A DNA stretch of 43,296 nucleotides from Chryseobacterium gleum. Lineage in GTDB: Bacteria; Bacteroidota; Bacteroidia; Flavobacteriales_D; Sanyastnellaceae. A program made the translations under genes and the position numbers. This document shows positions 1-19,025 of the stretch, piece by piece (the first letter of the stretch is position 1; every line of letters begins with the position of its first letter). The notes beneath the pieces were generated by a model that did no database searches, was not told the DNA's origin, and was given only the letters and a program-made list of their open reading frames with translations. The DNA is taken from assembly GCA_945878635.1 (NCBI GenBank), contig CAMCTV010000005.1, positions 1-43,296 on the forward strand. Direction: 5' to 3'.

Positions 1-909
1 GAGGATGATTGCGTTCCCGTTCTTGAAGAAATTAGTGGACTAAAAATGGGTGTTGATTTTAAAGTAGGTTATTCCCCTGAACGCATCAATCCCGGTGATA
101 AAGTCAATACCCTTAGAAGCATCATTAAGATAGTTGCAGGTTGTGATGAAGAAAGTTTAAATGAAATCGACAAAGTTTATTCCGTGGTTATTGATGCAGG
201 TTTGCACAGAGCGGCAAGCATCAAGGTAGCTGAAGCAGCTAAAATCATAGAGAATACCCAACGCGATGTAAACATTGCTTTGATCAATGAATTGTCTCTG
301 ATATTTAATAAAATGGGACTGAATACCTATGATGTTCTGGAGGCAGCAGGAACAAAATGGAATTTCTTAAAATTCCAACCTGGTTTGGTAGGCGGACATT
401 GTATTGGTGTTGATCCATATTATCTAGTATACAAAGCCAAGAAAATGGGTTATTTTTCCAAAGTAATTTCTTCTGCGCGTTATGTGAATGATTCGATGGG
501 TGCCTATGTTGGAAAACAAACGGTAAAGAAAATCATGGAAATGGGAAAAAACGCCCTAGAATCTAAGGTACTTGTCATGGGAGCCACATTCAAAGAAAAT
601 GTAAGTGACATCCGCAATTCCAAGGTGATTGATATTATTCGTGAGTTGGAAAGCTTCTCTGTTCAAGTGGACATCGTGGATCCTCACGCTGACAGTGCTG
701 AATTGCAACATGAGTATGGTTGCACTTTGGTGCCGCAGCCTTCACCCAATACTTATGAAGCCATCATCATTGCCGTTGCACACAATGAATACTTGAATAT
801 GGATGAACAATACTTGACATCTCTGCTTAAAGATGGTCAAGGAGTATTGGTGGATATCAAAGGGACTTACCGTTCTAAAATCAAACAGTTAAATTACTGG
901 AGTTTATAA
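1..909 (+). CDS. Nucleotide-sugar 6-dehydrogenase (UDP-GlcNAc/UDP-sugar dehydrogenase family), 5' truncated
   Basis: The reading frame is open from base 1, so the gene enters from outside the window; the first internal ATG (46) is not the true start. The product belongs to the UDP-glucose/GDP-mannose dehydrogenase family, which oxidises C6 of a nucleotide sugar to a uronic acid with NAD+. Visible landmarks are the VPVLEE...SGLK stretch, GYSPERINPGD, the helical central domain (KVAEAAKIIENTQRDVNIAL) and the catalytic cysteine in GGHCIGVDPYYL (codon 400-402). The C-terminal nucleotide-binding domain carries KVLVMGATFKENVSDIRNS. The SPERINPGD form and the wording around it resemble the WbpA/TviB group (UDP-HexNAc 6-dehydrogenases) more than UDP-glucose dehydrogenase, but the Rossmann N-terminus is missing here, so the substrate is inferred. 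It is followed after 32 bases by a TonB receptor gene. Confidence 0.9.
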   Translation, partial: EDDCVPVLEEISGLKMGVDFKVGYSPERINPGDKVNTLRSIIKIVAGCDEESLNEIDKVYSVVIDAGLHRAASIKVAEAAKIIENTQRDVNIALINELSLIFNKMGLNTYDVLEAAGTKWNFLKFQPGLVGGHCIGVDPYYLVYKAKKMGYFSKVISSARYVNDSMGAYVGKQTVKKIMEMGKNALESKVLVMGATFKENVSDIRNSKVIDIIRELESFSVQVDIVDPHADSAELQHEYGCTLVPQPSPNTYEAIIIAVAHNEYLNMDEQYLTSLLKDGQGVLVDIKGTYRSKIKQLNYWSL

Positions 910-4037: not shown

Positions 4038-7000
4038 TTATCTTACCACCTGCAACCTGCTCTTTTCGCCACCAAAATCAACCAAATACAACCCCGATTC
4101 CAAATCTCCAAAATTGATTTCAGCGACATTTCCATTCAACACCACATTGGTTTTAAACACAACCTTACCGGTGACGTCTCTCATGACCACTACCCTCCTA
4201 TCTTCATCTCTTGTCTCCTCATCACCCGTCTCCTCAACATTGTATTGCAACACAAAACTTCCTTTTGCTGTTGGGTTGGGGTAAATGGAAAAACTCGAAA
4301 CCCGAGACTCAATAATTGAATCGCTCTCACTCTCGCTCTGCATAACCATTCCCGCATTGCCTAAGCGCATGCATTGCAATGCCCCCCAATTCCCTTTTTG
4401 ACCGCTCAAATGCAAAGCCCTAACCCTAACCCCATAGGTTTTGCCAACACCAACACCTGGTATATTGTTCACCATGAAAATGGAGGAATAAGCCCCTCCT
4501 TGAACAACCATGGGCGCACCCTCGATAGGCAGAAATTGCGTAAACTCCCATTCATAACCTATGGCTCCACAAATCGTTCTATCTGGTGCAATATTTCCAC
4601 TCAAAGATTTCACAGCTGGACAGCGATCACTTAACCTCATGGATATTGTATTCTCAGACAACAACGTTACAGCGCTTATCAAAGTTGGTTGTGCAACAAT
4701 GGTTTCAAGATTATTGGCAGCGTCGGCTATTTGATAAATTACAGGGACCCTCATGCCATAAACCACTGGCAAACCCGTTTGATTCACCGGTAAAATACTA
4801 CCCAATCTTCCCACAACGGAACTTGCTCCCGTTGTGGTATAGCTCCATGGTTGCGACAACAAATCATTCCCATTCTGGGCTGCGGTAATTACCTCAAACT
4901 GGTACTGAGATGCATTGGCTTTGAAGGCCGCCTTAAAACTATTGCAGACATTGGAGTACACACCTGTATTATTGCTGTAATAATGATCGACAACAGTCCC
5001 GACAAAATGATTAAAACAAACTTTGGCAATGGGATTTATGGGGCCTGAGATATTTTGAATTGCCAACCAATATTCAACACCAACTTGCAAATCATCACTC
5101 AACAATGTTTGATTACCCGCTGTGTTCTCATGTTCTATTGAAATTAATTGCATGCACTCACCCTCTAACCGCTCAAACAACAACAAGCGATTGTTTCCAG
5201 TCGCTGCCGACAGGCCAACACGAACATTGTTGTAATTGGAGACAAACGAAAACCAAACGGTTCTTCCCTGTATTCCTTCTAAATCGATTGTCGCTCCGGT
5301 ATTCATATTGGCACTCTTTACGGCATTTCCTATGCATGAAGGATACAAAGATGTTGATACAGACACAGGAGTTACTCCTTCAAAAAAACTTCCTTCAATG
5401 GCAAAACCATCACAATCCTCATCAACTTGGTTGCCACACAACTCCGCCATGTTTGGATTTACACTGCTGTTATCATCGTCACAATCACTATTGTCCAAAA
5501 CAAAACCATCCATCATCAAACAAGTAACATAACCAACACTATTGGTTCCGAAACCATCACCATCAAAATCTGCGTAGTAATTAAAAGTAGTAATCCCCTC
5601 GTCAATGTTTCCATTGCAATTGTCATCCGATTCGTTGCATAATTCAATGGCATCTGGATAAATCAGTGGATTGTCATCATCGCAATCCACCAAATTGGTA
5701 TAGCCATCATCGTCCAAATCCACCTCACATCCTTCATCTATGGATCCATTGCAATTGTCGTCAATGCCATTGCCGCATTGTTCGTTGGCATTGGGATTGA
5801 CATTGGGGTTGCTGTCCTGACAATCTCCATGCTGCGCGACATAGCCAAATGGCAAAATACACTTGACCACTGCAATCTCTCCATTGCCCACACCATCGCT
5901 GTCCGCATCTTCATAATACGTTTCGAAGATCAATCCCTCATCAATCACGGCATTGCAATTGTCGTCCATGTCATTGCAAATCTCTACTGCTGATGGATTA
6001 ATGATGGATACCCAATCATTGCAATCTCCCTCCTGGGGAACAAAACCAAATGGTTGGTTGCATGCATTCAAAACGTTTTCACTTTGACCAAACCCATCTT
6101 CATCAATGTCTAGATAGAAATTATCGTAAGTCAATCCGTCATCAATCAAAGCGTTGCAGTCATTGTCAAGACTATCGCAAAATTCAATATTGTTGGGATG
6201 AATCACGGTATTGTTGTCATCGCAATCTTGATCATTGCTAACATAACCAACCAATGCCTCACACGCCAGCGCCAAGATCATTCCATTGCCATATCCATCT
6301 TGGTCTTGGTCTTCATATTGCGCATAAATAAGACCTTCATCCACCGATCCATTGTTGTTGTCATCCAACCCATTGCATATCTCCACACCTTGAATGTATT
6401 GGAAATGACAAAAACGGGATTCTCCAAAATTCACCGCTACCGATTCTGCAATCATCTCCTGCCCTGTTCCGTCAAAAAATCGAACAGCATCTAAATCTTC
6501 TACATCATCGATAACCAAGCTTAAAGACGATGTAGCATTAAAATTATCCCAATGCACGTACAATGTATCATTGGAAATCTTTGTGGTTACATGCGCCGCC
6601 AAACGATCTTTCCAATAAGCTCCAAAATCATCCAAAAACATGTATTTCAAATCACTTCCCAACCCATTGACATACTGCTGTTCTGCCAACAACTTATAAC
6701 CCCTATTGGGATGAATGAGCAAAACGGTTGGTGCATTATTGGCCAAATTCTTCTGGGTGATATTGATCCAATTGTTGGCATAAGTGCTGTAATTCTCTTC
6801 ATTAAAAGGAATAGATGCTGATGCATCGGAAATCGTAATCGGAATCTCCAAAACATTGGTTTGTGTTCCTGAAAATTTCAGTCCGTCAATATCAAAGAAC
6901 GGGAAATTGGTCAAAACATCATTGGCAGAAAAAGTTGAGTTGTACAAATATCCCAAATCTTGCAAAGCCTTGGGTAAACGGGGATTAAAAGCCAAATGAC

Positions 7001-8198
7001 CTGCTCTAAAGGATCTGACTTGTACGCTGTGATTGGATTCCAATAGATACTTAGAAACCTCTACCTCACCATATACATTCCCACCAGTGGTGATTCCATT
7101 GTAGTACCTCGGCTGATAATCTAGTGAGGTATTTCCCAAGGCCGACAGAGGAAAGAGGGTTGAATTGAAGTAATCAGGAAAATGGCCAACAGAGTGCGAG
7201 GCAATCTTTTGACCTTTGCTTTTGACATACTCCACTTTATCCAATGAAATGGTATAAAAAGCTGTCATCCAAGAATCTGCAAAATAACGCGTGGTAATAT
7301 TGTACATACTATTCACGCCATTCATTTGCTCATAATCTGCAAAAATGGCCATGGTATCCATAGCGGTTCGGCTATCAATGTCATGGGTAACCATCACAAC
7401 CCCAGACTCACAATCCGGACAAGTGTGTAATCTTACCGCATGTTCTGTATGTTTTCGTATAACATTGGTAATAAAAAAAATGAAGGTATCCGTTGTTGGT
7501 TCAAATCCATTGGAGTAGGTTCTATGCGCATTCAAATCACTGTTGATTAAATTCCGCATCACCACATCGCGCAAATCCAACCCAAATAAAAAAGTATGCC
7601 CTTCGCCAAATTCATGATGCACAACAGCCGATAAATTGTTCTCGTAATGTGCCAGCGTTTCTGCATTGCCTGTTGGTGTATAAGATCGTATATTAAAGGT
7701 TGAAGTGAAAGAATCCGAACTATCTGCCAAGGAAATCATTTTCTCCATAGGATCATCGATACGGTCAAAATAATCTTGCTCATCTTCCGTGTGCCAATAC
7801 ATCCGTTTCAAATCCGTATGTGTTGCGTATGCTGAAACACCAAACAAACCATACAAATCCGGATCGCGCATGGATGAGGCTATCAGTACTCCACCGTTCT
7901 CGACAAATTGAATCAATTTATTTTTCTCTGCAGATGTGAAAGTTCCCGGTACAACAACAGGGGCCAACATTACAATGCGATACTGCAAAACGGAATCCAA
8001 CACATTGCTCTCATGATAAGAAATCCCACCCGCTTGTAGTAAATGTCTGCATGATCGTATTCTAGAAAAATTGGTCTCATTGTTCTTGACTGTCAAATCC
8101 AATAATCCTACTTGCACTTGTTGTGCATGCAAAATATGGGTAAATCCCAAAAAGACAAGGACCATGAAAATTATATAAGGGCGGCGAATCATTTCCAT
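4038..8198 (-). CDS. Large secreted polysaccharide deacetylase-like protein with MopE-type repeats and T9SS sorting domain
   Basis: A 1386-residue multidomain exported protein. A signal peptide (residues 1-25, cut near ILHAQ) is followed by a glutamine-amidotransferase-like alpha/beta domain (about 28-250). Next is a polysaccharide deacetylase fold (about 265-545). Its motifs are THDIDSR (271-277; the Asp pair as in motif 1), HSVGH (335-339; the two metal-binding His of motif 2), RAGH (398-401; motif 3) and LLIHPNR (H496; motif 5). Residues about 605-936 hold five to six repeats of the form ExCNxxDDNCNGxxDEG...DxDGxG...DCDDxNxxxxPxA, the putative metal-binding MopE motif. A beta-rich region follows, then a C-terminal T9SS type A sorting domain (YPNPTAKG, VRDVTGKVV-like, ESGLYLVDF). 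It would act at the cell surface. It is the last gene of the 14173-4038 operon, 51 bases after the glycosyltransferase, which suggests deacetylation of the exported polymer. The substrate is inferred. Confidence 0.82.
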   Translation of the reverse strand: MEMIRRPYIIFMVLVFLGFTHILHAQQVQVGLLDLTVKNNETNFSRIRSCRHLLQAGGISYHESNVLDSVLQYRIVMLAPVVVPGTFTSAEKNKLIQFVENGGVLIASSMRDPDLYGLFGVSAYATHTDLKRMYWHTEDEQDYFDRIDDPMEKMISLADSSDSFTSTFNIRSYTPTGNAETLAHYENNLSAVVHHEFGEGHTFLFGLDLRDVVMRNLINSDLNAHRTYSNGFEPTTDTFIFFITNVIRKHTEHAVRLHTCPDCESGVVMVTHDIDSRTAMDTMAIFADYEQMNGVNSMYNITTRYFADSWMTAFYTISLDKVEYVKSKGQKIASHSVGHFPDYFNSTLFPLSALGNTSLDYQPRYYNGITTGGNVYGEVEVSKYLLESNHSVQVRSFRAGHLAFNPRLPKALQDLGYLYNSTFSANDVLTNFPFFDIDGLKFSGTQTNVLEIPITISDASASIPFNEENYSTYANNWINITQKNLANNAPTVLLIHPNRGYKLLAEQQYVNGLGSDLKYMFLDDFGAYWKDRLAAHVTTKISNDTLYVHWDNFNATSSLSLVIDDVEDLDAVRFFDGTGQEMIAESVAVNFGESRFCHFQYIQGVEICNGLDDNNNGSVDEGLIYAQYEDQDQDGYGNGMILALACEALVGYVSNDQDCDDNNTVIHPNNIEFCDSLDNDCNALIDDGLTYDNFYLDIDEDGFGQSENVLNACNQPFGFVPQEGDCNDWVSIINPSAVEICNDMDDNCNAVIDEGLIFETYYEDADSDGVGNGEIAVVKCILPFGYVAQHGDCQDSNPNVNPNANEQCGNGIDDNCNGSIDEGCEVDLDDDGYTNLVDCDDDNPLIYPDAIELCNESDDNCNGNIDEGITTFNYYADFDGDGFGTNSVGYVTCLMMDGFVLDNSDCDDDNSSVNPNMAELCGNQVDEDCDGFAIEGSFFEGVTPVSVSTSLYPSCIGNAVKSANMNTGATIDLEGIQGRTVWFSFVSNYNNVRVGLSAATGNNRLLLFERLEGECMQLISIEHENTAGNQTLLSDDLQVGVEYWLAIQNISGPINPIAKVCFNHFVGTVVDHYYSNNTGVYSNVCNSFKAAFKANASQYQFEVITAAQNGNDLLSQPWSYTTTGASSVVGRLGSILPVNQTGLPVVYGMRVPVIYQIADAANNLETIVAQPTLISAVTLLSENTISMRLSDRCPAVKSLSGNIAPDRTICGAIGYEWEFTQFLPIEGAPMVVQGGAYSSIFMVNNIPGVGVGKTYGVRVRALHLSGQKGNWGALQCMRLGNAGMVMQSESESDSIIESRVSSFSIYPNPTAKGSFVLQYNVEETGDEETRDEDRRVVVMRDVTGKVVFKTNVVLNGNVAEINFGDLESGLYLVDFGGEKSRLQVVR
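5390..6392 (-). repeat. MopE-type repeat block inside the deacetylase gene
   Basis: This part of the gene encodes about five and a half units of roughly 65 codons, one of them shortened to about 45. Each unit carries an acidic DxDxDG-like loop, a DCDD loop and a CNxxDDNCNG loop. The paired cysteines and the Asp/Asn-rich loops are expected to bind calcium and stiffen a spacer between the deacetylase domain and the C-terminal part. The units are clearly diverged at the DNA level, so this is an old amplification rather than a recent slippage product. Confidence 0.7.
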
Positions 8199-8249
8199 TC
8201 TTTTATTTTATATCGTCAATCCGACGCGCAACTTCATTCAATGGTTTCA

Positions 8250-9557
8250 TTACAACCGCATTTTCTTGGCAAAGGCCGATGACTTGGGCGGATTCCAGGG
8301 GTCATTGTACGACTCCTTGAATATCAACTCTTGCAAATAAGCCTTGGTGCGCACAAAACGAAGAAAGTACCCAAAGTACAAGACCATACCCGGCAAATAA
8401 GGCAAGAAATAAGCAATGGGTTCTTTTTGCGACAATCGAAAAGCGGAGAATATGATAAATTTCAGAAAGTAATTGGCTGTATAAAGACACAAATTCGTCA
8501 ATAAAATAATAGGCAAAAGAGAGGTGAAATTCAAAAGAATGTCTGCTATATAAAAATACCATTTGAAGTTCAAAACCAAGTTGTAAAAAATATTCTCAAC
8601 GAATGAGATGAAATTCAACCAAGAAAAATTCTTGGATGGAAGCAATACATCAATGTGTTTGCGCAAACGAAAACGCACCAAGCTCTTGTCCCAACGCAGT
8701 CGTTGCTTGGCTAATTTTCTAAAGGTATCAGGCGCAGCCGTTTTGCATACGGCGGTGGGTTCATACTTGACCTTATAACCCATTTTTCGCAACTTTACCG
8801 TGATATCTCCATCCAATCCAGGACCGACATCCCAGCCGCCAATCTTATCCAAAGCATCCCTTCTAAATGCACCAAATGCACCACTGATAACCCGATATAT
8901 GCCCAGCTCACTGCTCGATATTCGGCCAATGGAAATGCTGTCAAAATACTCGATGGCTTGAAAAGTAGCCACCAACGAATCTCTATAATTTCTTACTTGA
9001 ACATTGCCACCTACCCCGCCAATCAGTGGATCCGTGTAAAACAACTTCACTATATTCTCCATGGCATCTGGATCATAGGAGCAATCAGCATCCAAATGCA
9101 CCACAAACTCGCCCTTGGACAGGCGCAATGCCAAATTAGCCGCTGAAGCTTTTCCGCCTCTCACCTCATTGCGCACAAACAAATCAATCAGGCCATTCTT
9201 CTCCAAACTCCTGCATATGCGCTCTGTCTCATCATCACTTCCATCATCAATGATGATCAACTCAAAGTTCTGATAGGTCTGCTGCTTGAGCGACTGAACC
9301 AACTTATAAATGTGCTTTCCCTCGTTTTTACCAGGAACGATTATGGACACCAATGGCATGCGCGTCCAAAACTCATAATGGGCTTTGGTAATCTTATCCT
9401 TTCTGAACCTGTTCGTAAAACGCCACAATATCAGGACAACCAACTCAAAGAGAAAAAACCGGAGAAACTCAAATATGACGAAAAAATAGAAATACCGAAA
9501 GAACTTACCAAAGCTGATAAACTGAACAAAATTGATAAAGTCATCAATGTAGTTCAT
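8250..9557 (-). CDS. Processive family 2 glycosyltransferase (polysaccharide synthase), membrane bound
   Basis: A 435-residue inner-membrane glycosyltransferase of the GT2 group that includes hyaluronan, PNAG and alginate synthases. A membrane segment lies at about residues 15-47. The catalytic domain follows: SIIVPGKNEG (71-80), IIIDDGSDDE (101-110), the DXD-type HLDAD (154-158), GLDGDIT as the acceptor-side acid, and QRLRW (285-289), the Q(Q/R)xRW signature of processive synthases. Two or more membrane segments occupy about 315-400. No PilZ domain is attached. Its ATG overlaps the stop of the zinc-ribbon gene upstream as ATGA (9554-9557), so the two are translationally coupled. The sugar substrate cannot be read from the sequence. 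Confidence 0.9.
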   Translation of the reverse strand: MNYIDDFINFVQFISFGKFFRYFYFFVIFEFLRFFLFELVVLILWRFTNRFRKDKITKAHYEFWTRMPLVSIIVPGKNEGKHIYKLVQSLKQQTYQNFELIIIDDGSDDETERICRSLEKNGLIDLFVRNEVRGGKASAANLALRLSKGEFVVHLDADCSYDPDAMENIVKLFYTDPLIGGVGGNVQVRNYRDSLVATFQAIEYFDSISIGRISSSELGIYRVISGAFGAFRRDALDKIGGWDVGPGLDGDITVKLRKMGYKVKYEPTAVCKTAAPDTFRKLAKQRLRWDKSLVRFRLRKHIDVLLPSKNFSWLNFISFVENIFYNLVLNFKWYFYIADILLNFTSLLPIILLTNLCLYTANYFLKFIIFSAFRLSQKEPIAYFLPYLPGMVLYFGYFLRFVRTKAYLQELIFKESYNDPWNPPKSSAFAKKMRL

Positions 9558-10963
9558 TCACGATTCAATTTTTGAAGCATCATTTTCATCAATTCCTCGC
9601 CGTTCTTAGCGTCATCGTAATTTAAAACAACATGCTTTAATTCAATCTTGAAAGCATTGTAATTTTCCGAAATGAGTTGTTGAATCAGGTCCGCTACCTC
9701 TCTTAATTTTTCGCCATTGACGACATCTGTTAGCGCTCTTCTGGTGGTCCAAATAAAATGACCTTGATTGTTAAGGGTGATAAAATCCTTCAAAGTCATT
9801 TCACCTTTAATAATATCAGCCAGCTCTCTAATAAGACTTTGCTTTTTAAATCCTCCGAAATGATGACTAAACTCATTGACATTGACCAAAACCAAACCGT
9901 TGAGCTGATGTTGCCATTCCGGAAGACCGCTGGCATGTATGTAATCAAAATGCAGCAGCGTTTCAAAGGTTCTTTCCTCTTGTATCTCGTCCAAGGTTAG
10001 ATGAGGTTTCTCATCTTGCTCAGACAGTCCCTCTGTAATGGCCAACCTTCCTTTCTTGGTCAGCTTATAAGCATTGATGTTCCGCGCTTGCAAGTATTGA
10101 ACATCCGTATCGTGTGAACAATGCATACACTTGGCCTTGACAAAAATATCTTGAAAACGGCTGTCGCATTCATTGCAATGGTTCAAAACAGCTGGTTTGT
10201 CATAATCAACCCCAACATGATGCAAATTCTTGTTGCACTTGGGACAACTCAAATTATCCGTATCCACCTTCTCAAAATCAGAAATAGGACCGATATAGGC
10301 ACAGGGGAAATGATGAATCAAATCCTCTCCATAGGTATTGGAAGAACTGCAATGCGGACAAACTTCTCTGAAAAGCAATAACCCCGCACTGCACTGATTG
10401 CACAAATAAATTTTCTCTACAAAGTCCGGCCAAATGTATCCATTTTCCTCTGCCCAATCCAATGCTGCCAAAACTTCTGTCTCTTCATGGGGCTCAAATG
10501 ACATGGAGACCGTCGGATAAGCATACCCAATGATTGAGTAGGGATCCAAAACGGGGTCAATAACCTTCGTTTGTCTGGTATACATCAAATCCAAAGCCTT
10601 TTTCATTACCTTTCCATACTGACCCGCAGGGGCCTTGGCTGACAAATCCAAAGAGCGAACAAAAATATCATTGGTCTTGCGCTGCAATTGTTCTTCATCC
10701 ATTGACCCATCAACAAATCCATCAACCAACATTCCCAACACCGCCGGTGATTTTGATGAATAGCGCTGAACAAAAATGGGTTTTAAATACACCTCGGGTT
10801 GATGGTGGCGGCGTATGGCATATACCGTACTCCGCACAAAATCAACGTTGGGTGAATCAACAATGACAGCATCATGCCCCATCAAAAAAGGAAGGGAATA
10901 ACCACTGTCTGAGGTTATTTTCAGAACCAATGTTTGTCCTATCTTAAAACTCTGGTAACTCAT
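9554..10963 (-). CDS. TackOD1-like zinc-ribbon protein with REC-like N-terminus and degenerate GGDEF-like C-terminus
   Basis: A 469-residue soluble protein with no signal peptide or membrane segment. Residues about 28-90 (DAVIVDSP...PIFV...LVDGFVDG) have the spacing of a receiver-like domain. Residues about 145-310 hold a zinc-ribbon region with cysteine pairs at 188/191, 202/205, 240/243, 263/266 and 279/282, plus LIHHFPC and HHVGVDYDKP; this resembles the TackOD1 output domain as I recall it. The C-terminal 330-469 reads like a GGDEF fold in which the signature is replaced by NNQGHF (398-403), preceded by D393 at the usual spacing, so cyclase activity is not expected. It lies between the adaptor gene (3 bases) and the synthase gene (4-base overlap). 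This suggests a cytoplasmic regulator of the synthase. The zinc ribbons are seen directly; the other domain calls are inference. Confidence 0.75.
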   Translation of the reverse strand: MSYQSFKIGQTLVLKITSDSGYSLPFLMGHDAVIVDSPNVDFVRSTVYAIRRHHQPEVYLKPIFVQRYSSKSPAVLGMLVDGFVDGSMDEEQLQRKTNDIFVRSLDLSAKAPAGQYGKVMKKALDLMYTRQTKVIDPVLDPYSIIGYAYPTVSMSFEPHEETEVLAALDWAEENGYIWPDFVEKIYLCNQCSAGLLLFREVCPHCSSSNTYGEDLIHHFPCAYIGPISDFEKVDTDNLSCPKCNKNLHHVGVDYDKPAVLNHCNECDSRFQDIFVKAKCMHCSHDTDVQYLQARNINAYKLTKKGRLAITEGLSEQDEKPHLTLDEIQEERTFETLLHFDYIHASGLPEWQHQLNGLVLVNVNEFSHHFGGFKKQSLIRELADIIKGEMTLKDFITLNNQGHFIWTTRRALTDVVNGEKLREVADLIQQLISENYNAFKIELKHVVLNYDDAKNGEELMKMMLQKLNRE

Positions 10964-10966
10964 TTT

Positions 10967-12052
10967 TCAGTACTTGAATTTTTTGACTTGAACACCCATC
11001 TTATAATAGTTCTTCCACTTTACTCCCTCCAATGAATCACTGGGATAAATGTCTCCCGCAATGGTTCTGGTTGTTGGCTCAAATCGCTTTTGGTACTCCT
11101 CAGGCAATGGAATGGTGGAGTAATAAAAACGCTGAACAATTCCATGAGAAGTCTCCCCATTGGGAAAAATCACTTCAAAACGATCACCCACCTGAAAATG
11201 ATCAATATCGGACTGATCAAAATAAGCGCGAACAAATACCGGTGATGTTCTGTGGATAGACATGGAAATTTCTGATTTCAAACATGTCTCGTAAGGACGT
11301 GTATAGATGCGGTTCACGCTACCCTCAAATGGCGAGATGTAAAACTTCAGTTTATTGTCATCCCCGCTGCTTCGTCCCTCCGCTTCAGCCAGCATCGGAC
11401 GTTCTAAAGGAATCTCCACCCGCTTGTCATTCAACTTCGCAATGGTTGATTGGTACTCCAAAATTTCGGCTTCCATACGACTTTGTTCAGCATCCAATCT
11501 TGTAATATCATTCAATTTATTTTGCAAATGTGACTGCGGAATCACACCCAATTGTACCTGAGATTTGATGGTGCTCAACTCTTTTTGGTAGGTCGACATC
11601 AACTTTTGGCTCTCTGCAATCTTAATTTGATTCAGACTGATTTTTTGCTCCAATGAAATAATCTCTCGGTCAATCCAATCATTGTTGTTCTGAACCCTTC
11701 CCGTGGTGCTAACACCTGACATCCGCAATTTCACATCACTGTCGCTCTCATCTGACGACTCGACATAACTGAACAATGTGTCTCCAATTCGAATGGTATC
11801 ATCAACGTTTACAAAATATTCGATGATTCGGCTATCCTCCAACAACCGAACATTGACATTCTCGTAAAGGATGTGGCCATCTGCCTTCACATAAAATAAT
11901 CTAGAAAAAATAAAATACCCGATGCCGCCCAAGAGCAAAAAGAAAACGATGAAATAGATGATTCTATCCCACTGTCGCTTCCTCTTGACCAATACTTTTT
12001 CATTGATCACTCGGATATCAGAGCCTTGTCGTTTAAAATTTACACTTTTCAA
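10967..12052 (-). CDS. HlyD-family membrane fusion protein (Alg44-like adaptor without PilZ)
   Basis: A 361-residue inner-membrane adaptor. A basic cytoplasmic tail (1-30) precedes one membrane segment (31-50). A split biotinyl-lipoyl-like domain follows (about 54-95 and 234-262, with FEGSVNRIYTRPYETC), around a coiled coil (about 125-212, LEQKISLNQIKIAESQKL and similar). The end is a beta-barrel region (VFVRAYFDQSDIDHFQVGDRF). This is the layout of HlyD/EmrA proteins and of the periplasmic half of Alg44. It would bridge the GT2 synthase to the outer-membrane channel. The short N-terminal tail leaves no room for a PilZ domain. The gene starts 3 bases after the channel gene and ends 3 bases before the zinc-ribbon gene. 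Confidence 0.88.
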   Translation of the reverse strand: MKSVNFKRQGSDIRVINEKVLVKRKRQWDRIIYFIVFFLLLGGIGYFIFSRLFYVKADGHILYENVNVRLLEDSRIIEYFVNVDDTIRIGDTLFSYVESSDESDSDVKLRMSGVSTTGRVQNNNDWIDREIISLEQKISLNQIKIAESQKLMSTYQKELSTIKSQVQLGVIPQSHLQNKLNDITRLDAEQSRMEAEILEYQSTIAKLNDKRVEIPLERPMLAEAEGRSSGDDNKLKFYISPFEGSVNRIYTRPYETCLKSEISMSIHRTSPVFVRAYFDQSDIDHFQVGDRFEVIFPNGETSHGIVQRFYYSTIPLPEEYQKRFEPTTRTIAGDIYPSDSLEGVKWKNYYKMGVQVKKFKY

Positions 12053-12055
12053 AGC

Positions 12056-14173
12056 TTATGGATTTAATAATAAATAGGACTCAAAATCATGGATAGCGTA
12101 GCGTTTGCTCTTTAGCCAAGGGTCAATGGCCTGGATATCTTTTTCAATATCTTGACGCAAAGTATAATCCTTGGCACTCAAGGCAATGGTTGCTTTACCA
12201 CCAAGTATAGTAAGTTCTTCTTCCGCCCTTCTGCGAATAGCCTCTACACCGGATGTTTCGTATGCCATGACCACCACTTCATCGCTATTGTCATTCAATA
12301 CTTTTAAAACCTTTGCATCATAATACAACGGCACTGCAAAACCCAAGTAAACACCTTTCGATTCTGCCCATTGATGCAATCGCACCACCATTTCAGAATA
12401 TTGCAACATCAAACTGTCCTTGTTTTGCTTGTATTCATCCATGGCATGTGGCTCGATATCAAAATGTACACCAGCCAATACAACACCACTCATCTTTTTC
12501 CAAACGCTGTCCATCTTGGCCACAGCATCCCCTTTCAGCCATTGATTGCGTCCAATCAAAAGTTGAACGGATATGTCTTTCTGCTGCAATTGATTGGCCA
12601 ATGTTTTAAATCGTTGCACTTGTTCCGCTCCACTGCCCACCGAGAGATAAACCTCCTGAATACCCCATTGAATCAACTTTTGCGTAATTTCCTCTGGCTC
12701 ACGCTGGGCAATGGACTTGGACCACATGTAAATGCTCCTGCTCCCTGCTTGCACCCGCTCTTCTGATTGAAACGATATGGGCTCCTCATAAGGTGACCAT
12801 GGCCTGATGTATTGCAACACATTTTCCTCTGGCAACAATCCATGGATATCACCCAACTTCAAATACAATTGCTGCTGCGCATCCAATTTCTCAATCTCCA
12901 AATTCCAAAAGTTCAACAATCCATTCAAGGCTTCCAAAGGTTGAAAATATTCGGTGTTCACTTTGGCCTGCTGACCATACGTCGCCAATTGCTGACGCAA
13001 CAAGTCCTGCCTTCCCACTGCCACTGCATACTGCTTTAATTTGTACCGGTATTCATACACCAAGGTTGAAACTTGTGTCCACTTCAACTCTGACTGAACC
13101 TGAACCTGAGATCTGGCCTTCTGCAATTTCAATGTGCTCAGTGTTTGATAATCTTTATTAAAGACTCGAAGAGGAACGTTGGCATTGAGTCCCATCGAAA
13201 TAAATGACCGGTCTCTCATATTATCTTGCAAATCAAAATAATTGTATTTAAAACTATAAGACAAACCCACTTCATTGATCCAATGCTTCCTCCACGCATC
13301 ATTCTCCTCTTGCATCATCAATTGACGATCTTGAATGGGATGATTACTTGAAAGCAATCTCAAAGCTTTGGCATTAACATCAAACAATGGCCACAATTTG
13401 GAGGGATCAGCAGAAGAAGCTGGAAGCAAACCTTCCATTCCGTCATTGAAACCGCGATAGGTTTGGATTTGACCATTGGTCTCCATCAACTGCTCATAAG
13501 CTTTATACAATTCATCATTCAACACTGGATACATGGATACCGCTTGTTTAAGAATGACAATTTCGTCTTGAAGCACTTTCTTTTTCTTTTCCAGCACTTG
13601 TACTTTTTGAGCATTGAACAAAAAGAGTATATTATTCTTACTCCAATAGGAAATGCTTTGGTTGCGATTTTCCATGGCAGAGAGCAATTCAATATTCTTC
13701 TCATTGACCAGGGCTTTGGATTCAAAACCATTGGCAACAAGACCTCCAGCTAGAATATCCCAATTGAAACCAGTTGTGGTTTTTGCCTTGTAAAAAAGAT
13801 TTTCTTCTGTTGGTTGAGGATCAAAGTTCTGAACAATATTGGTATTCCATGACAAACCGTAATCAGCTCGGGTTGCCTTGGCTTTTTGGTTGTAATATTG
13901 TTCAATTTGCTGCAGCAACTGTGGAGATTGAGCGGATTGAACATCGGGCCAAAGTGAGGGGACAACATCAATACTGAGAGCGGTTGACGAGGCGACAGTC
14001 AAGTTGGAATTTTTCAACCACAATTGACTCAATGCATCAACAGATTGTCCGCTGGAATCCAATTGAGCAAAAAGGCCAGGGATTTGAAACATCCATACCA
14101 GCATTATAAAAATTACAATTCTACCAAAAGCAACCATTCCAACCCATTTTCTTTTGGGTGTGCAAAGAAACAT
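12056..14173 (-). CDS. TolC-like outer-membrane channel fused to a C-terminal glycosidase-like domain
   Basis: A roughly 705-residue exported protein. The open frame begins at a TTG (14185), but I place the start at the ATG at 14173; an ATG at 14137 (MVAFGR) would also give a good signal peptide ending near GLFAQ. Residues about 80-455 look like an outer-membrane efflux (TolC) domain: two beta stretches (around TGFNWDILAGG and SFISMGLNANVPLRVF) each followed by long amphipathic helices. Residues about 485-705 form a different alpha/beta domain with SIYMWSK, EVYLSVGSGA, GVHFDIEPHAMDEY and VVVMAYE at successive strand ends. This resembles a GH18-like or related (beta/alpha)8 barrel with a DxE pair (DIE). 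It is the first gene of the polysaccharide operon. The fusion suggests that polymer is trimmed or bound at the exit. The fold and activity of the second half are inferred. Confidence 0.75.
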   Translation of the reverse strand: MFLCTPKRKWVGMVAFGRIVIFIMLVWMFQIPGLFAQLDSSGQSVDALSQLWLKNSNLTVASSTALSIDVVPSLWPDVQSAQSPQLLQQIEQYYNQKAKATRADYGLSWNTNIVQNFDPQPTEENLFYKAKTTTGFNWDILAGGLVANGFESKALVNEKNIELLSAMENRNQSISYWSKNNILFLFNAQKVQVLEKKKKVLQDEIVILKQAVSMYPVLNDELYKAYEQLMETNGQIQTYRGFNDGMEGLLPASSADPSKLWPLFDVNAKALRLLSSNHPIQDRQLMMQEENDAWRKHWINEVGLSYSFKYNYFDLQDNMRDRSFISMGLNANVPLRVFNKDYQTLSTLKLQKARSQVQVQSELKWTQVSTLVYEYRYKLKQYAVAVGRQDLLRQQLATYGQQAKVNTEYFQPLEALNGLLNFWNLEIEKLDAQQQLYLKLGDIHGLLPEENVLQYIRPWSPYEEPISFQSEERVQAGSRSIYMWSKSIAQREPEEITQKLIQWGIQEVYLSVGSGAEQVQRFKTLANQLQQKDISVQLLIGRNQWLKGDAVAKMDSVWKKMSGVVLAGVHFDIEPHAMDEYKQNKDSLMLQYSEMVVRLHQWAESKGVYLGFAVPLYYDAKVLKVLNDNSDEVVVMAYETSGVEAIRRRAEEELTILGGKATIALSAKDYTLRQDIEKDIQAIDPWLKSKRYAIHDFESYLLLNP

Positions 14174-14332
14174 GACAAATATCAATTACAGCAATAAACT
14201 TTAATATTTTTTCATTAATACTGCGTTAAAATTTGGTGTGGAATGATTTTATCATTTTGGATGATGCAAAAAAACATGTCAACCCATTGGGATGGATGGC
14301 CTATACCGGCGTCGGTGCGACTTGATTTCTTG

Positions 14333-14696: not shown

Positions 14697-15905
14697 TCAG
14701 AGAGAAACTCCCTCATTTTCCCGCTTTATATCAGGATTCAAATAGAGCATTTTAATCCTTCTGTCAGATTCCAACCGTTTTTCAAGAAAAACATCCTCGG
14801 CTGATATCCCCGTAATCGAGGACAATTTCCTCTTCAATTCTCGCATCTTGATGTCCTTCCTCTTCTTCAATGTGTCAAAATTGGGATCCCCGTGATCAAA
14901 GAACCGATTCAAGTCAGACGACTCAAAGCCCATTTCTCCCAATTCAAAAAAGTAAACCATCATCTGCTTCTCCAATTCAGTCAGTGTCTCCACTTCTTTC
15001 ACTTGGATTGACTCCGGCATGCCTCTCTTTTCTCTGCCTTTGTACTTCCATAAAAACCAAGCTAGTAATACAAGAGTCATCATTATCAAAACAACCATTA
15101 TCAAAATCCAATTGGGTGTTGGAACAGGAACAAACTGCTCCCGCACCAATGGCGCTCCCAAATAATCTTTCTTGTTAACCAATTCCACCAGAAAACTACC
15201 TTCGTCATGTTTGCCTCTCGACAGCAACAAATGCTCACCATGCTCTACCAACTCAAACAAACTTGTAAACTTGTCAGAGGAAAAAACAGTGACCTGGTTC
15301 AAATCCCCACCCACTTCCAAAATCTTGTTTCCCAAACGCGCCAATCGCCCATCATTCTTCCAAAACTTCAACACATGCTCATTCAAAGGATTCCAAGTGA
15401 CAGATACCAATCCAAGGTTTCTCCACTCCCATGTCTTGGTGTTCAGCACTCGAACATCATTCAGGTCATAATCGCCATTGCTCCCTTCAGACTTTCCTTT
15501 GAAAAAGTATTTGTCATCTTTGACCTTAAAAGAAAAACCTCCCGAAAAATCAGGCGGAATAATCCCTCTGCATCTGCGCAGGTACCAACCATGTGTATCC
15601 CAATCAAAATACGTAGTGATGTTGGTGGATTCAAAAAAACCATATCCACCTGTCATGAAAATGGTGTCGTTCTGGGTCCAAATCATACCAGAATGCTGAT
15701 TCTTGTGACGAAAAGAATGATCGATGCGAACAATGGAATCTCCCTTTAATTCATACACCATTCCACATCCCGAAACCACAAAAAAATCACCTTTCGACGA
15801 AGAGATGGGAATAAAATCAGCGCGCAATGTATTGAAGTCCATCGCTTGCTGGTAATGAATAATGCTCATTTTCCAAGCGTCACCTAACCCCTTGGAAGAA
15901 AACAA
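14697..15905 (-). CDS. Kelch-like membrane sensor, main body (frameshifted from its signal peptide)
   Basis: This open frame encodes about 402 residues. The N-terminal two thirds is a beta-rich, Kelch/propeller-like extracytoplasmic domain (GDFFVVSGCGMVYEL, NDTIFMTGGYGFFES, NTKTWEWRNLG). One membrane segment follows (WILIMVVLIMMTLVLLAWFLW, about 265-285). The cytoplasmic tail of about 110 residues (LTELEKQMMVYFFELG...KKRKDIKMRELKRKL...LESDRRIKMLYLNPDI) has the look of a winged-helix-type domain found at the end of some Bacteroidota membrane proteins; this is inference. The listed ATG start is not credible, because coding potential continues upstream in the same frame (residues ..SPSKNKFQVINDTLFSSK) up to a T7 run, where the frame must change to join a signal peptide encoded by 16048-15948. 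The family is otherwise not recognised. Confidence 0.6.
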   Translation of the reverse strand: MFSSKGLGDAWKMSIIHYQQAMDFNTLRADFIPISSSKGDFFVVSGCGMVYELKGDSIVRIDHSFRHKNQHSGMIWTQNDTIFMTGGYGFFESTNITTYFDWDTHGWYLRRCRGIIPPDFSGGFSFKVKDDKYFFKGKSEGSNGDYDLNDVRVLNTKTWEWRNLGLVSVTWNPLNEHVLKFWKNDGRLARLGNKILEVGGDLNQVTVFSSDKFTSLFELVEHGEHLLLSRGKHDEGSFLVELVNKKDYLGAPLVREQFVPVPTPNWILIMVVLIMMTLVLLAWFLWKYKGREKRGMPESIQVKEVETLTELEKQMMVYFFELGEMGFESSDLNRFFDHGDPNFDTLKKRKDIKMRELKRKLSSITGISAEDVFLEKRLESDRRIKMLYLNPDIKRENEGVSL

Positions 15906-16066: not shown

Positions 16067-16096
16067 CAAAGGTAAGCACTTGGTATTATTTTACAA
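16067..16096 (-). promoter_or_regulatory. Bacteroidota promoter for the Kelch-like sensor gene
   Basis: Reading the minus strand, TTG (16096-16094) is followed by exactly 19 bases and then TACCTTTG (16074-16067), a perfect match to TTG-N19-TAnnTTTG. Transcription would start near 16060, about 12 bases before the ATG at 16048. The -33 element lies inside the last codons of the peptidase gene. Confidence 0.75.
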
Positions 16097-19025
16097 CAAA
16101 CGGAATGACTAAATTATCTTCTTTGATAAAATAATAACCCGGTGTCAGGGTTTCACAATGAAGCAACACCCTATCAAAACCTTTATCAATCAACGGTTTC
16201 AGAACCTCCCTGCCACACACGTCCACCACTATCAAATTGTTAAAATTAATATTCTGTTTTTTCATAATTACCGTCAAAACTCCATTGTCAACAGGATTGG
16301 GATATAATGTCCAATTCATCTCCGACTCAGATACACTGTTCACTTCTTGATACTCATCGTAGACAATAAAATCATCCATGGCAGCCTCTACCAAAGACCC
16401 ACCGCTCAAATTGACCGTTGGGCGCAAGCTATCTGATGCAATAAAACGAATCTTCATTTGCGCTGTTGGCGTCAAGATGTCCTCCACTCGATAGGCTGCC
16501 ATGCGCCATCGGGCGTCTGAAGTCATGGTGTTCTCCAAATAGGTCCACGTCGCTCCATTATCATTGGACAATTGTACTTGGAACCAATCTGCTCCTGGAT
16601 TGGCACCGCCAGGAGGACTATTGGTGTACCAACGATTATAAGCAATAATAGGATGCACATAAGGCGTAAAGTCCATGGTGGGTGATTGCAATGTGGTGTG
16701 ACCAGCATCTACGTCATTTGCACCAATGCCATCATTGGGCAAAGCATTTCCGGTAACAAAACAGTACTCCCCTCCTTCCGTAGTTTGCGTACCTGTTTGC
16801 ACAATGGTTCCCGGTGCAGCGTCCACGGTCAAACTGCTAATGGGCTGGGCCAATTCCCAAATCCCTGTTGTGGCATTGTCTCCCGAGACACCAGTTGACC
16901 AAGCGCCCCAAGGCTCATTGTTGTCGCAGTCTTGAACAGCAACAGGACTAACACCAATCAAGCTTAAATAGGGCAAGTTGGGATAGACGCTCAAATGCGC
17001 ACCCGCTGGATCTGCCGCTCCAATGTTGTTGTTGATGTCCGTTACAGTCATGTAATATTTCACCACAGTGGCCAATGGGTGCGGTCCAATATTGCCGGTG
17101 TATTGTCCACCACCCTGATCAGCCATGGGCATCTCTTGCCAATTGGCATTGTTGACCTGATAATGCAAGGCCACATCACTCACATAATTGGTGTAGGGAA
17201 AATCCAAATTCAATCCTGACTCCAAAATAATTGTTGTATTCTCTGTCAAGAAAGGCTCGTTCAAGTGAACCAACTCTGCACTAGAAATCAAAGAGATTCC
17301 GTGCATGTAAAACCCTTGAACAATGGCATTGCCATTCGGCGTCCCATTGGTGATGTCGCCGTCCTCGTCGTCGGTCAATAGCAAATCGATCAAAACATCC
17401 GTATAGGCTTGCCCTTCGTTTCCATCGGCTGCCATGGCTTGAAGGCCGGCGTAGGTCTCGACGAATAGCGGAATGGTAGTATTCCAATCGGCGCCCATCA
17501 ACAAATGGGTGTCCCACCATGCTCCCATCAGAATTTCCCCATCTTGATGCACTTCGCCCACCAAGTCCATGGGATATACTTTGGGGTTAATGTCGTAGCG
17601 GCGAATGGGATCTAGATTGTCCACGTAGAATCCACTGCCCAAAATGGGATTATTGCTCAACGAAATGGCCCAAAAATCAGCGTAAGCCTCGCCAATGGCG
17701 CCATTCATAAAGAATCCGCCCATGGATTGATAATAATTGTCATTGATGCCATGGCCATACTCATGGTAGGCAACATCAGGAATATTGGAGGTCGCATTGC
17801 ATCCATTGGCCAAATCATAGAAGTTGATAGATGTACCATCATAAAACGCGTTGCAGTCTCCCCCTGTCACATCAATGTTGGTGGGCAATTGAAAATCCAT
17901 GCCTGTAAAATCAGGCATCCACAACTTCATGTGATCATGAATGTCTTGCACACTGCGGTAGGCGGTTCGTTCTTTGATATTGGAATCGCTGTCAAAAGAG
18001 ACAACGTTACTTCCCTCTTGCAAAGTAGCGCTAAATGATGGTGTTGTGGTTCCAGAATAAACACGGGCCCAAGGACCCTCTAAAGAAAAAGTCGCATTGA
18101 AAGGACCCACTTGCGGGATATTGACGTTGCCATTGCCATCGGTATAATAGGTTGAACCATTGGCCACGATTTTCAAATTGGGCAAAACACCTTGCACGGG
18201 TGCATCCCAAGGAGATGTCAGATAATAAGATGAACCAACATTCACATCCACGGCCAAAACGTCGCTGCAAGACTTGGTGCAAGGCTTTCCTGGAGTGTGT
18301 GAGTGGGCTACTTGGTTTTTCCGCATCCACACTTGGCCCGTGAGCGCGTCTACATAAGTCAAATAATGTTGAGGAATTCCTGTGGCATTGTGCGCATGGA
18401 TCATGACCTCATAAACCAATCGCAAGGTTTGCTCTTGTTGGGTATATACTGGCAATAATTTCATCAACTCCGAAGTCCAAGCGGTGTCCAACAATGTCGG
18501 TAATCCTTCCAAAGCCTTATCCAACGCTGCTTGACCATTAATGGCAGGAATTGTCACTACATCTTTTGTAGAGAACAAATCTGCTCCAAAAGAAACAATA
18601 CCTTGTGTTACGCGCTCTGTCTTGAATTGAGAAAAGAGCACTTCCAATCCGTTGTATTCTTGTACAAAACGATGAATGGTCTTTTTACCTGTTCTGATCA
18701 AAGGCATTTCATTCAGTTGGTATCCATTCCACCCAAATGTCTCCATCACTTCCTGCTGAAACTGCTCATCGGAAACGGAAATGGCTTTACCCCACGCTTT
18801 GTGAAGGTTTTGATTTTGCTCGTTAAAAATCACCGACCAACCCTCATGCGTTGCGGAAAATTGCTTCCAACTTTCTTGGTTGCGCAGGGCTTGTTGATTT
18901 TGGTGCTGAAGAGGAGCAACTTTGGTTAATCGAACCTCGAAAGGGTCATGACTCATTTCCAGGTTGCTCTGCCCAAAGGCTGCAGTACCTATGAAAAATA
19001 AAAAGAGGGATAAAATTTTTTTCAT
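16086..19025 (-). CDS. Secreted zinc metallopeptidase, fungalysin (M36)-like, with T9SS sorting domain
   Basis: A 979-residue exported protease. It has a signal peptide (1-19, cut near AAFGQ) and a pro-region (about 30-225) resembling the fungalysin/thermolysin propeptide, with LIRTGKKTIHRFVQEYNGLEVLFSQF in pieces. The catalytic domain (about 250-575) has the zinc motif HEYGH (421-425) and the third ligand in GAIGEAYADFW (E446). EVHQDGEILMGAWWD follows, as in M36 enzymes. Later come a beta-sandwich region, a region similar to immunoglobulin or jelly-roll accessory domains, and a terminal sorting domain (LYPNPVDNG, VVDVCGREVL, LTPGYYFIK). It is predicted to be released or attached at the surface after T9SS export. 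An inverted repeat covers its start codon. Confidence 0.9.
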   Translation of the reverse strand: MKKILSLFLFFIGTAAFGQSNLEMSHDPFEVRLTKVAPLQHQNQQALRNQESWKQFSATHEGWSVIFNEQNQNLHKAWGKAISVSDEQFQQEVMETFGWNGYQLNEMPLIRTGKKTIHRFVQEYNGLEVLFSQFKTERVTQGIVSFGADLFSTKDVVTIPAINGQAALDKALEGLPTLLDTAWTSELMKLLPVYTQQEQTLRLVYEVMIHAHNATGIPQHYLTYVDALTGQVWMRKNQVAHSHTPGKPCTKSCSDVLAVDVNVGSSYYLTSPWDAPVQGVLPNLKIVANGSTYYTDGNGNVNIPQVGPFNATFSLEGPWARVYSGTTTPSFSATLQEGSNVVSFDSDSNIKERTAYRSVQDIHDHMKLWMPDFTGMDFQLPTNIDVTGGDCNAFYDGTSINFYDLANGCNATSNIPDVAYHEYGHGINDNYYQSMGGFFMNGAIGEAYADFWAISLSNNPILGSGFYVDNLDPIRRYDINPKVYPMDLVGEVHQDGEILMGAWWDTHLLMGADWNTTIPLFVETYAGLQAMAADGNEGQAYTDVLIDLLLTDDEDGDITNGTPNGNAIVQGFYMHGISLISSAELVHLNEPFLTENTTIILESGLNLDFPYTNYVSDVALHYQVNNANWQEMPMADQGGGQYTGNIGPHPLATVVKYYMTVTDINNNIGAADPAGAHLSVYPNLPYLSLIGVSPVAVQDCDNNEPWGAWSTGVSGDNATTGIWELAQPISSLTVDAAPGTIVQTGTQTTEGGEYCFVTGNALPNDGIGANDVDAGHTTLQSPTMDFTPYVHPIIAYNRWYTNSPPGGANPGADWFQVQLSNDNGATWTYLENTMTSDARWRMAAYRVEDILTPTAQMKIRFIASDSLRPTVNLSGGSLVEAAMDDFIVYDEYQEVNSVSESEMNWTLYPNPVDNGVLTVIMKKQNINFNNLIVVDVCGREVLKPLIDKGFDRVLLHCETLTPGYYFIKEDNLVIPFVVK

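Follow-up and report, generated by a model that had tools for sequence, protein, structure and literature searches.

We analysed a stretch of 43,296 nucleotides (the window) from Chryseobacterium gleum (assembly GCA_945878635.1, contig CAMCTV010000005.1, GTDB family Sanyastnellaceae). The host genome is a draft of 2.35 Mb, 93% complete. An earlier note, made from the window alone, had described an operon of five minus-strand genes at positions 4038 to 14173 and interpreted it as a candidate new synthase-dependent exopolysaccharide export system. All five open reading frames (ORFs) were found as it gave them, with spacings of 3, 3, −4 and 51 bp. In order, they encode a channel of TolC type with a fused glycosidase-like domain (12056..14173), an HlyD/EmrA-like periplasmic adaptor (10967..12052), a cytoplasmic regulator with a TackOD1 domain (9554..10963), a processive family 2 glycosyltransferase (GT2) resembling the polysaccharide synthase PgaC (8250..9557) and a large secreted protein with a deacetylase-like region (4038..8198).

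The first four genes constitute a fixed core, to which the deacetylase is accessory. Alignment of the TackOD1 protein identified 342 relatives among 84,980 species genomes, and the best 80 loci were kept; every title among them belonged to a Bacteroidota lineage. The order channel, adaptor, TackOD1 protein and GT2 was complete and co-directional in 70 of these 80 loci, and in the other ten a contig end adjoined the missing gene. The channel itself was present as a core member in 72 of the 80 relatives, the remaining ones being truncated by contig ends, and the median core gaps were 2, 2 and −1 bp. Carriers available in culture include Crocinitomix catalasitica ATCC 23190 and Brumimicrobium glaciale IC156. 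In 392 Bacteroidota genomes, sampled evenly, TackOD1 (over cut-off), the GT2 subfamily and the channel family were each searched for independently. All three were located in the identical 12 genomes, at 13 places. The neighbourhoods inspected in ten carriers besides the host genome comprised 11 loci, several of them belonging to a different class, and the four genes were present in all. This co-occurrence is far beyond chance, shared ancestry allowed for. The earlier note had proposed, as a test, to look for all five families as neighbours in other Bacteroidota; the four core families recurred without exception, but the deacetylase did not share their constancy.

The TolC identity of the channel (705 aa, with an N-terminal signal peptide and an alternative TTG start at 14185) was revealed only by its family profile and a structure model. 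Pfam on the window protein alone and a PDB sequence search gave no match, while 31 of 59 relatives matched the Pfam outer membrane efflux family, OEP. The model (pLDDT 85.4) contains a TolC fold followed by a beta/alpha barrel, in agreement with the fusion described before. The TolC-fold part (residues ~69-454; 12812..13969) matched 7ng9 (Foldseek E 2.8e-11; VIA Z 18.6, 374 aligned). The barrel (residues 476-705; 12059..12748) was nearest to GH18 chitinases (VIA Z up to 19.6, to 4wiw) and also aligned to the C-terminal domain of PgaB (4p7o, Z 17.9, 228 residues). Pfam GH18 was not matched in a scan of the channel family. In the GH18 pattern DxxDxDxE the first D is replaced by H in the barrel, with DxE and MxYE kept, and residues D572, E574, M636, Y638, E639, D669, H695 and D696 were invariant across 59 relatives. 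We take D572 to correspond to the middle aspartate of the GH18 pattern, E574 to the catalytic glutamate and M636, Y638 and E639 to the MxY(D/E) motif. Because of these correspondences a retaining, N-acetyl-assisted mechanism is possible for the barrel. The C-terminus of TolC is periplasmic, therefore the GH18-like domain should be periplasmic too.

The glycosidase-like domain was also matched by 76 of 82 TolC-family ORFs from 91 loci. Of the six lacking it, two (L078 and L102) were fragments of broken genes and four (L114, L116, L117 and L121) were intact channels. A TviB-like UDP-GlcNAc 6-dehydrogenase was encoded inside the operon in three of the four loci with intact channels (L114, L116 and L117), and none was found within the operon of L121. 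From the GH18-like domain and, in these three loci, the in-operon dehydrogenase we infer a polymer derived from N-acetylhexosamine (HexNAc), which would consist of HexNAc in loci with the GH18-like domain and of a HexNAc-uronic form in those with the dehydrogenase.

The adaptor has a single N-terminal transmembrane helix, and its TTG start aligned with the invariant first methionine of its relatives. Matches to NCBIfam EmrA (3.5e-6), to HlyD_3 (38 of 48 relatives) and to the EmrA structure 4tko (1.3e-5) upheld its description as HlyD-like. In one relative (L115:10293-11834) the adaptor carries a C-terminally fused SPOR domain, which is peptidoglycan-binding.

An EmrA-like adaptor beside a TolC-like channel could simply serve efflux or export of a type-I-like kind, in which case the GT2 and the regulator would be neighbours with a separate job. 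However, an ordinary TolC efflux pump combines an MFS, ABC or RND transporter with its adaptor and channel, and no such transporter gene was found within the four-gene core, where the GT2 is the sole polytopic protein. The strict adjacency of the four genes, their identical distribution among genomes and the glycosidase fused to the channel also speak against this explanation. We consider it highly improbable, and the ordinary drug-efflux pair, named in the earlier note as the outcome that would overturn its interpretation, was rejected. HlyD/EmrA-like adaptors normally dock on a transporter. As the core lacks an MFS, ABC or RND gene, the GT2 would be the only candidate inner-membrane partner for the adaptor there; a transporter encoded away from the core is possible as well.

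The GT2 (PF00535, 9.1e-30) has hydrophobic segments at its N- and C-terminus. The motifs DD, DAD (the DxD motif, 9084..9092), GD and QRLRW (8691..8705; Q285, R286, R288 and W289) were all invariant in 46 relatives, which bears out the earlier recognition of a processive enzyme with DXD and QRLRW. The closest named family was PgaC/IcaA (TIGR03937, 9.1e-53). The locus could thus be considered a divergent poly-beta-1,6-GlcNAc (PNAG, Pga) system in which the channel-glycosidase fusion and a separate deacetylase replace PgaA and PgaB. In addition to the PgaC-like GT2, the similarity of the barrel to the C-terminal domain of PgaB and the NodB-like deacetylase that accompanies the system in some lineages are consistent with this possibility. 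However, the GT2 scored 180 bits against an equivalog cut-off of 422, and the conserved core of the examined loci held no PgaA TPR-porin, PgaB lipoprotein or PgaD counterpart. The GH153 domain of PgaB lacks the GH18 catalytic consensus (PMC5933820), whereas the barrel here keeps DxE and MxYE. Most cores have no deacetylase nearby, and unlike that of the PNAG system the deacetylase here would be exported by the type IX secretion system (T9SS). A divergent Pga system is therefore unlikely in our estimation.

A second comparison is with the XcsA-XcsB-TolC route of cellulose secretion, proposed for Thermosynechococcus vulcanus (Maeda 2018, as described in PMC12430437) and experimentally unconfirmed according to that review. 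It has the same three-part logic, with a GT2, an HlyD-like adaptor and a TolC-like channel as the proposed tripartite polymer conduit, and the present system could be a relative of it with a glucan as product. However, the match of the GT2 to CelA/BcsA was weak (1.5e-13, as against 9e-53 for PgaC). The T. vulcanus genes are scattered, its synthase carries a PilZ domain and its product is cellulose, whereas here one conserved operon was found, with no PilZ domain, a GH18-like rather than an endoglucanase-type hydrolase, placed on the channel, and a TackOD1 regulator that is outside the published cyanobacterial set. A glucan-producing relative of this route has only the slightest probability in our view. 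As a precedent, the proposed XcsAB-TolC route is nevertheless the nearest published one, as much as alginate or PNAG. The parallel to the alginate, PNAG and cellulose machines drawn in the earlier note was thus supported, with function inferred, although it had passed over a system at least as near as alginate or PNAG. The alginate system (alg8/alg44/algK/algE) likewise has a GT2 with a membrane-fusion-protein-like partner, but the adaptor here has no PilZ domain and a TolC-type channel replaces AlgE and AlgK. Zymomonas BcsZ-BcsC fusions (PMC7112194) also join a hydrolase to an outer-membrane pore; there it is a cellulase on a TPR/beta-barrel pore, here a GH18-like domain on TolC.

The regulator (469 aa, no transmembrane helix found) had been described as a zinc-ribbon, TackOD1-like protein. 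The TackOD1 assignment stood (PF18551, 3.4e-49; 10061..10609), but the protein is more than a zinc ribbon, since a pseudo-receiver-like domain precedes TackOD1 and a degenerate GGDEF-fold domain follows it, both of which had been missed. The TackOD1 domain has 11 invariant cysteines, in five CxxC and one HxxC (HFPC in the window), and this pattern matches the definition in PMC5847659. The C-terminal 148 residues (322-469; 9557..10000) have a GGDEF fold (VIA Z 15.1 to 4yme; profile match to 3ign, 4.4e-6), and PF00990 was detected in 25 of 69 relatives (best 9.4e-7). The GGDEF signature was lost in every row inspected. In the RxxD inhibitory site (I-site) the aspartate was kept in 67 of 69 relatives and the arginine in 26, the window protein having TLKD. 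REC-GGDEF chains aligned across residues 5-469, weakly for the pseudo-receiver domain alone, and the VIA rows for the regulator reflect mainly the GGDEF part. The pseudo-receiver-like domain (10649..10963, borders approximate) is homologous to a stand-alone protein of 106-119 aa from another class. This small protein adjoins a receiver-TackOD1-GGDEF protein in L115 (9947-10276), L118, L119, L120, L122 and L124, so that, compared with the window regulator, a domain has been either split off or fused. In that class the TackOD1 protein begins with a receiver domain (Response_reg, 5.8e-24), with the phospho-acceptor aspartate kept in most copies. Because a receiver domain heads the same protein there, the comparison supports a putative receiver-type input to the regulator. 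Archaeal REC-TackOD1 response regulators (PMC5847659) also have TackOD1 with 11 cysteines; they occur in two-component or pilus contexts, whereas here the protein lies beside a polysaccharide synthase and includes a degenerate GGDEF domain.

The TackOD1 protein appears to have descended from regulators responding to cyclic di-GMP (c-di-GMP). No GGDEF, EAL or PilZ proteins were detected in the draft host genome, and control genomes gave matches. With the motif lost and no such match, control by c-di-GMP through the GGDEF domain was disfavoured for this genome. Since GGDEF, EAL and PilZ were not detectable there, a repurposed regulator acting independently of c-di-GMP is the likelier option. PelD, which regulates a polysaccharide synthase, is likewise a degenerate GGDEF protein, and it binds c-di-GMP through RxxD (PMC8461298). 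As in the present system, the Pel genes (pelABCDEFG) thus pair the synthase with a degenerate GGDEF protein, and the logic of a hydrolase and a deacetylase is shared too. However, the regulator here is soluble, TackOD1 replaces the GAF domain and transmembrane helices of PelD, and the I-site is not conserved. The synthase is a GT2 and not PelF (GT4), no PelF or PelG gene occurs in the core, and c-di-GMP enzymes were not detected in the host genome.

The accessory protein combines a GATase-like and a NodB-like deacetylase region with MopE repeats and a T9SS sorting domain. Its enzymatic region (6399..8117, minus strand as for all features of the operon) fell below the Pfam threshold and carries the motifs THDID (residue 271), SHSVGH (334), RxG and LLIHPxR (HPNR at 496); the NodB-like motifs THDxD and HSxxH were conserved in its relatives. 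In this genus the deacetylase protein contains an insertion of MopE-type Cys-rich repeats (PF11617, six matches; 5382..6386, residues ~605-939), and the same repeats were seen in other near-core proteins (L025 and L028). The C-terminal sorting domain (4062..4286; PF18962, 9.6e-8) and the presence of the T9SS translocon gene sprA in the host genome (TIGR04189, E 0) are in keeping with export by this route, as had been suggested. The deacetylase adjoined the core in just 11 of the 80 loci, and its place varied: on the upstream side, on the downstream side or, in L090, separating the adaptor gene from the TackOD1 gene. Its family occurred in four of the 392 genomes, three of them carriers (P = 0.002 without the host genome), and in the two other carriers with a deacetylase the gene was not beside the core. 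In many lineages a T9SS-tagged CotH kinase/lamin-tail protein, sometimes with a chitobiase-type C-terminal domain, was encoded immediately or almost immediately after the GT2, on its downstream side. Examples are L032:13339-15981, L097:12689-15700, L061 and L103.

Several further features were recorded around the core. The window starts inside a TviB/WbpA-like UDP-N-acetylglucosamine 6-dehydrogenase, whose 3′ part (1..909, plus strand, outside the operon) is cut by the contig end. Its N-terminus is probably at the end of contig C27 (L133, 1-3232), and the two contigs are thus probably neighbours. C27 has genes resembling a UDP-glucose dehydrogenase, a nucleotide-sugar SDR enzyme and a WbpD-like acetyltransferase. 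A role of the window dehydrogenase in precursor supply is possible. As proof of a uronic-acid polymer it was rejected, since the convergent group of genes to which it belongs is separate and the probably adjoining C27 carries other nucleotide-sugar-like genes. Upstream of the operon, genes for a kelch-like membrane protein (14697-15905) and an M36-like metalloprotease (16086-19025) were kept only in the closest relative and were excluded from the system for this reason. In Crocinitomix and its relatives (L074-L076, L079-L084, L086, L087 and L100) the channel gene is directly preceded by a glycosyltransferase family 9-related gene (cluster c6), as part of a long conserved gene order. A promoter consensus scan of the locus gave no signal above shuffled sequences.

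We consider it probable that the operon encodes a synthase-dependent exopolysaccharide secretion system, in which a HexNAc-based polymer would pass through a tripartite TolC conduit and the regulator would dock on the synthase. The earlier interpretation was to this extent supported. In the mechanism we propose, the GT2 would polymerise a UDP-activated sugar, most likely derived from HexNAc, and thread the chain across the inner membrane. The adaptor would link the GT2 to the TolC-type channel, a trimer, and so complete a closed conduit through the periplasm. BcsZ, PelA and PgaB trim or clear polymer in other systems, and the three GH18-like domains on the periplasmic C-termini of the channel may do so at the conduit. 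The TackOD1 protein probably docks on the GT2 and would license synthesis by protein-protein signalling and not through c-di-GMP. The T9SS deacetylase or the CotH protein would be lineage-specific secreted tailoring additions.

Several points weigh against this proposal. Polymer production from the locus is, in every carrier, a prediction from the genes, and the sugar is a tentative assignment, with the window GT2 so far under the PgaC equivalog cut-off. The coupling of the GT2 to the adaptor and to the regulator is putative. The pairwise distance matrices of the four families speak for the proposal, being highly correlated (r 0.82-0.92 over 22 loci, at most 0.39 in 500 permutations), but this correlation reflects the inheritance of a single operon in addition to interaction. 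Against a regulator independent of c-di-GMP, the RxxD arginine is retained in 26 of 69 relatives, and at the completeness of the host draft an undetected c-di-GMP gene is possible.

By the published definition (PMC7112194), the core holds an inner-membrane polysaccharide synthase, the predicted GT2, and a periplasmic modification enzyme, the GH18-like domain on the channel; the deacetylase of a subset of loci is predicted to be secreted by T9SS and not periplasmic. Where the definition calls for a regulatory or co-polymerase subunit that binds c-di-GMP, the core encodes a GGDEF-fold protein whose catalytic motif is gone, as is the RxxD arginine in the window protein, and which may represent a variant independent of c-di-GMP. 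No TPR domain was found in the core, the pore being of TolC type with an HlyD-like adaptor. Lacking a TPR-coupled pore, the system works like a synthase-dependent one and is not a canonical member. On balance we lean towards a further class of synthase-dependent machine, restricted to Bacteroidota so far, with a TolC/HlyD conduit, a built-in GH18-type hydrolase and a c-di-GMP-independent pseudo-response-regulator gate containing a fossil GGDEF domain.

A 2020 survey, whose text has no mention of Bacteroidetes, distinguished five synthase-dependent exopolysaccharide systems (PMC7112194), and no earlier description of the operon was found in the open-licence literature. If our interpretation is true, a further type would be added to these, in the form of a conserved set of four genes spread over hundreds of species of Bacteroidota. 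TackOD1, called functionally obscure in 2018 (PMC5847659), would gain a role. The operon would also offer a compact genetic test of whether a nascent polysaccharide passes through a TolC/HlyD conduit, a question left by the scattered cyanobacterial XcsAB-TolC genes (PMC12430437). Since cultured carriers exist, the system is testable now.

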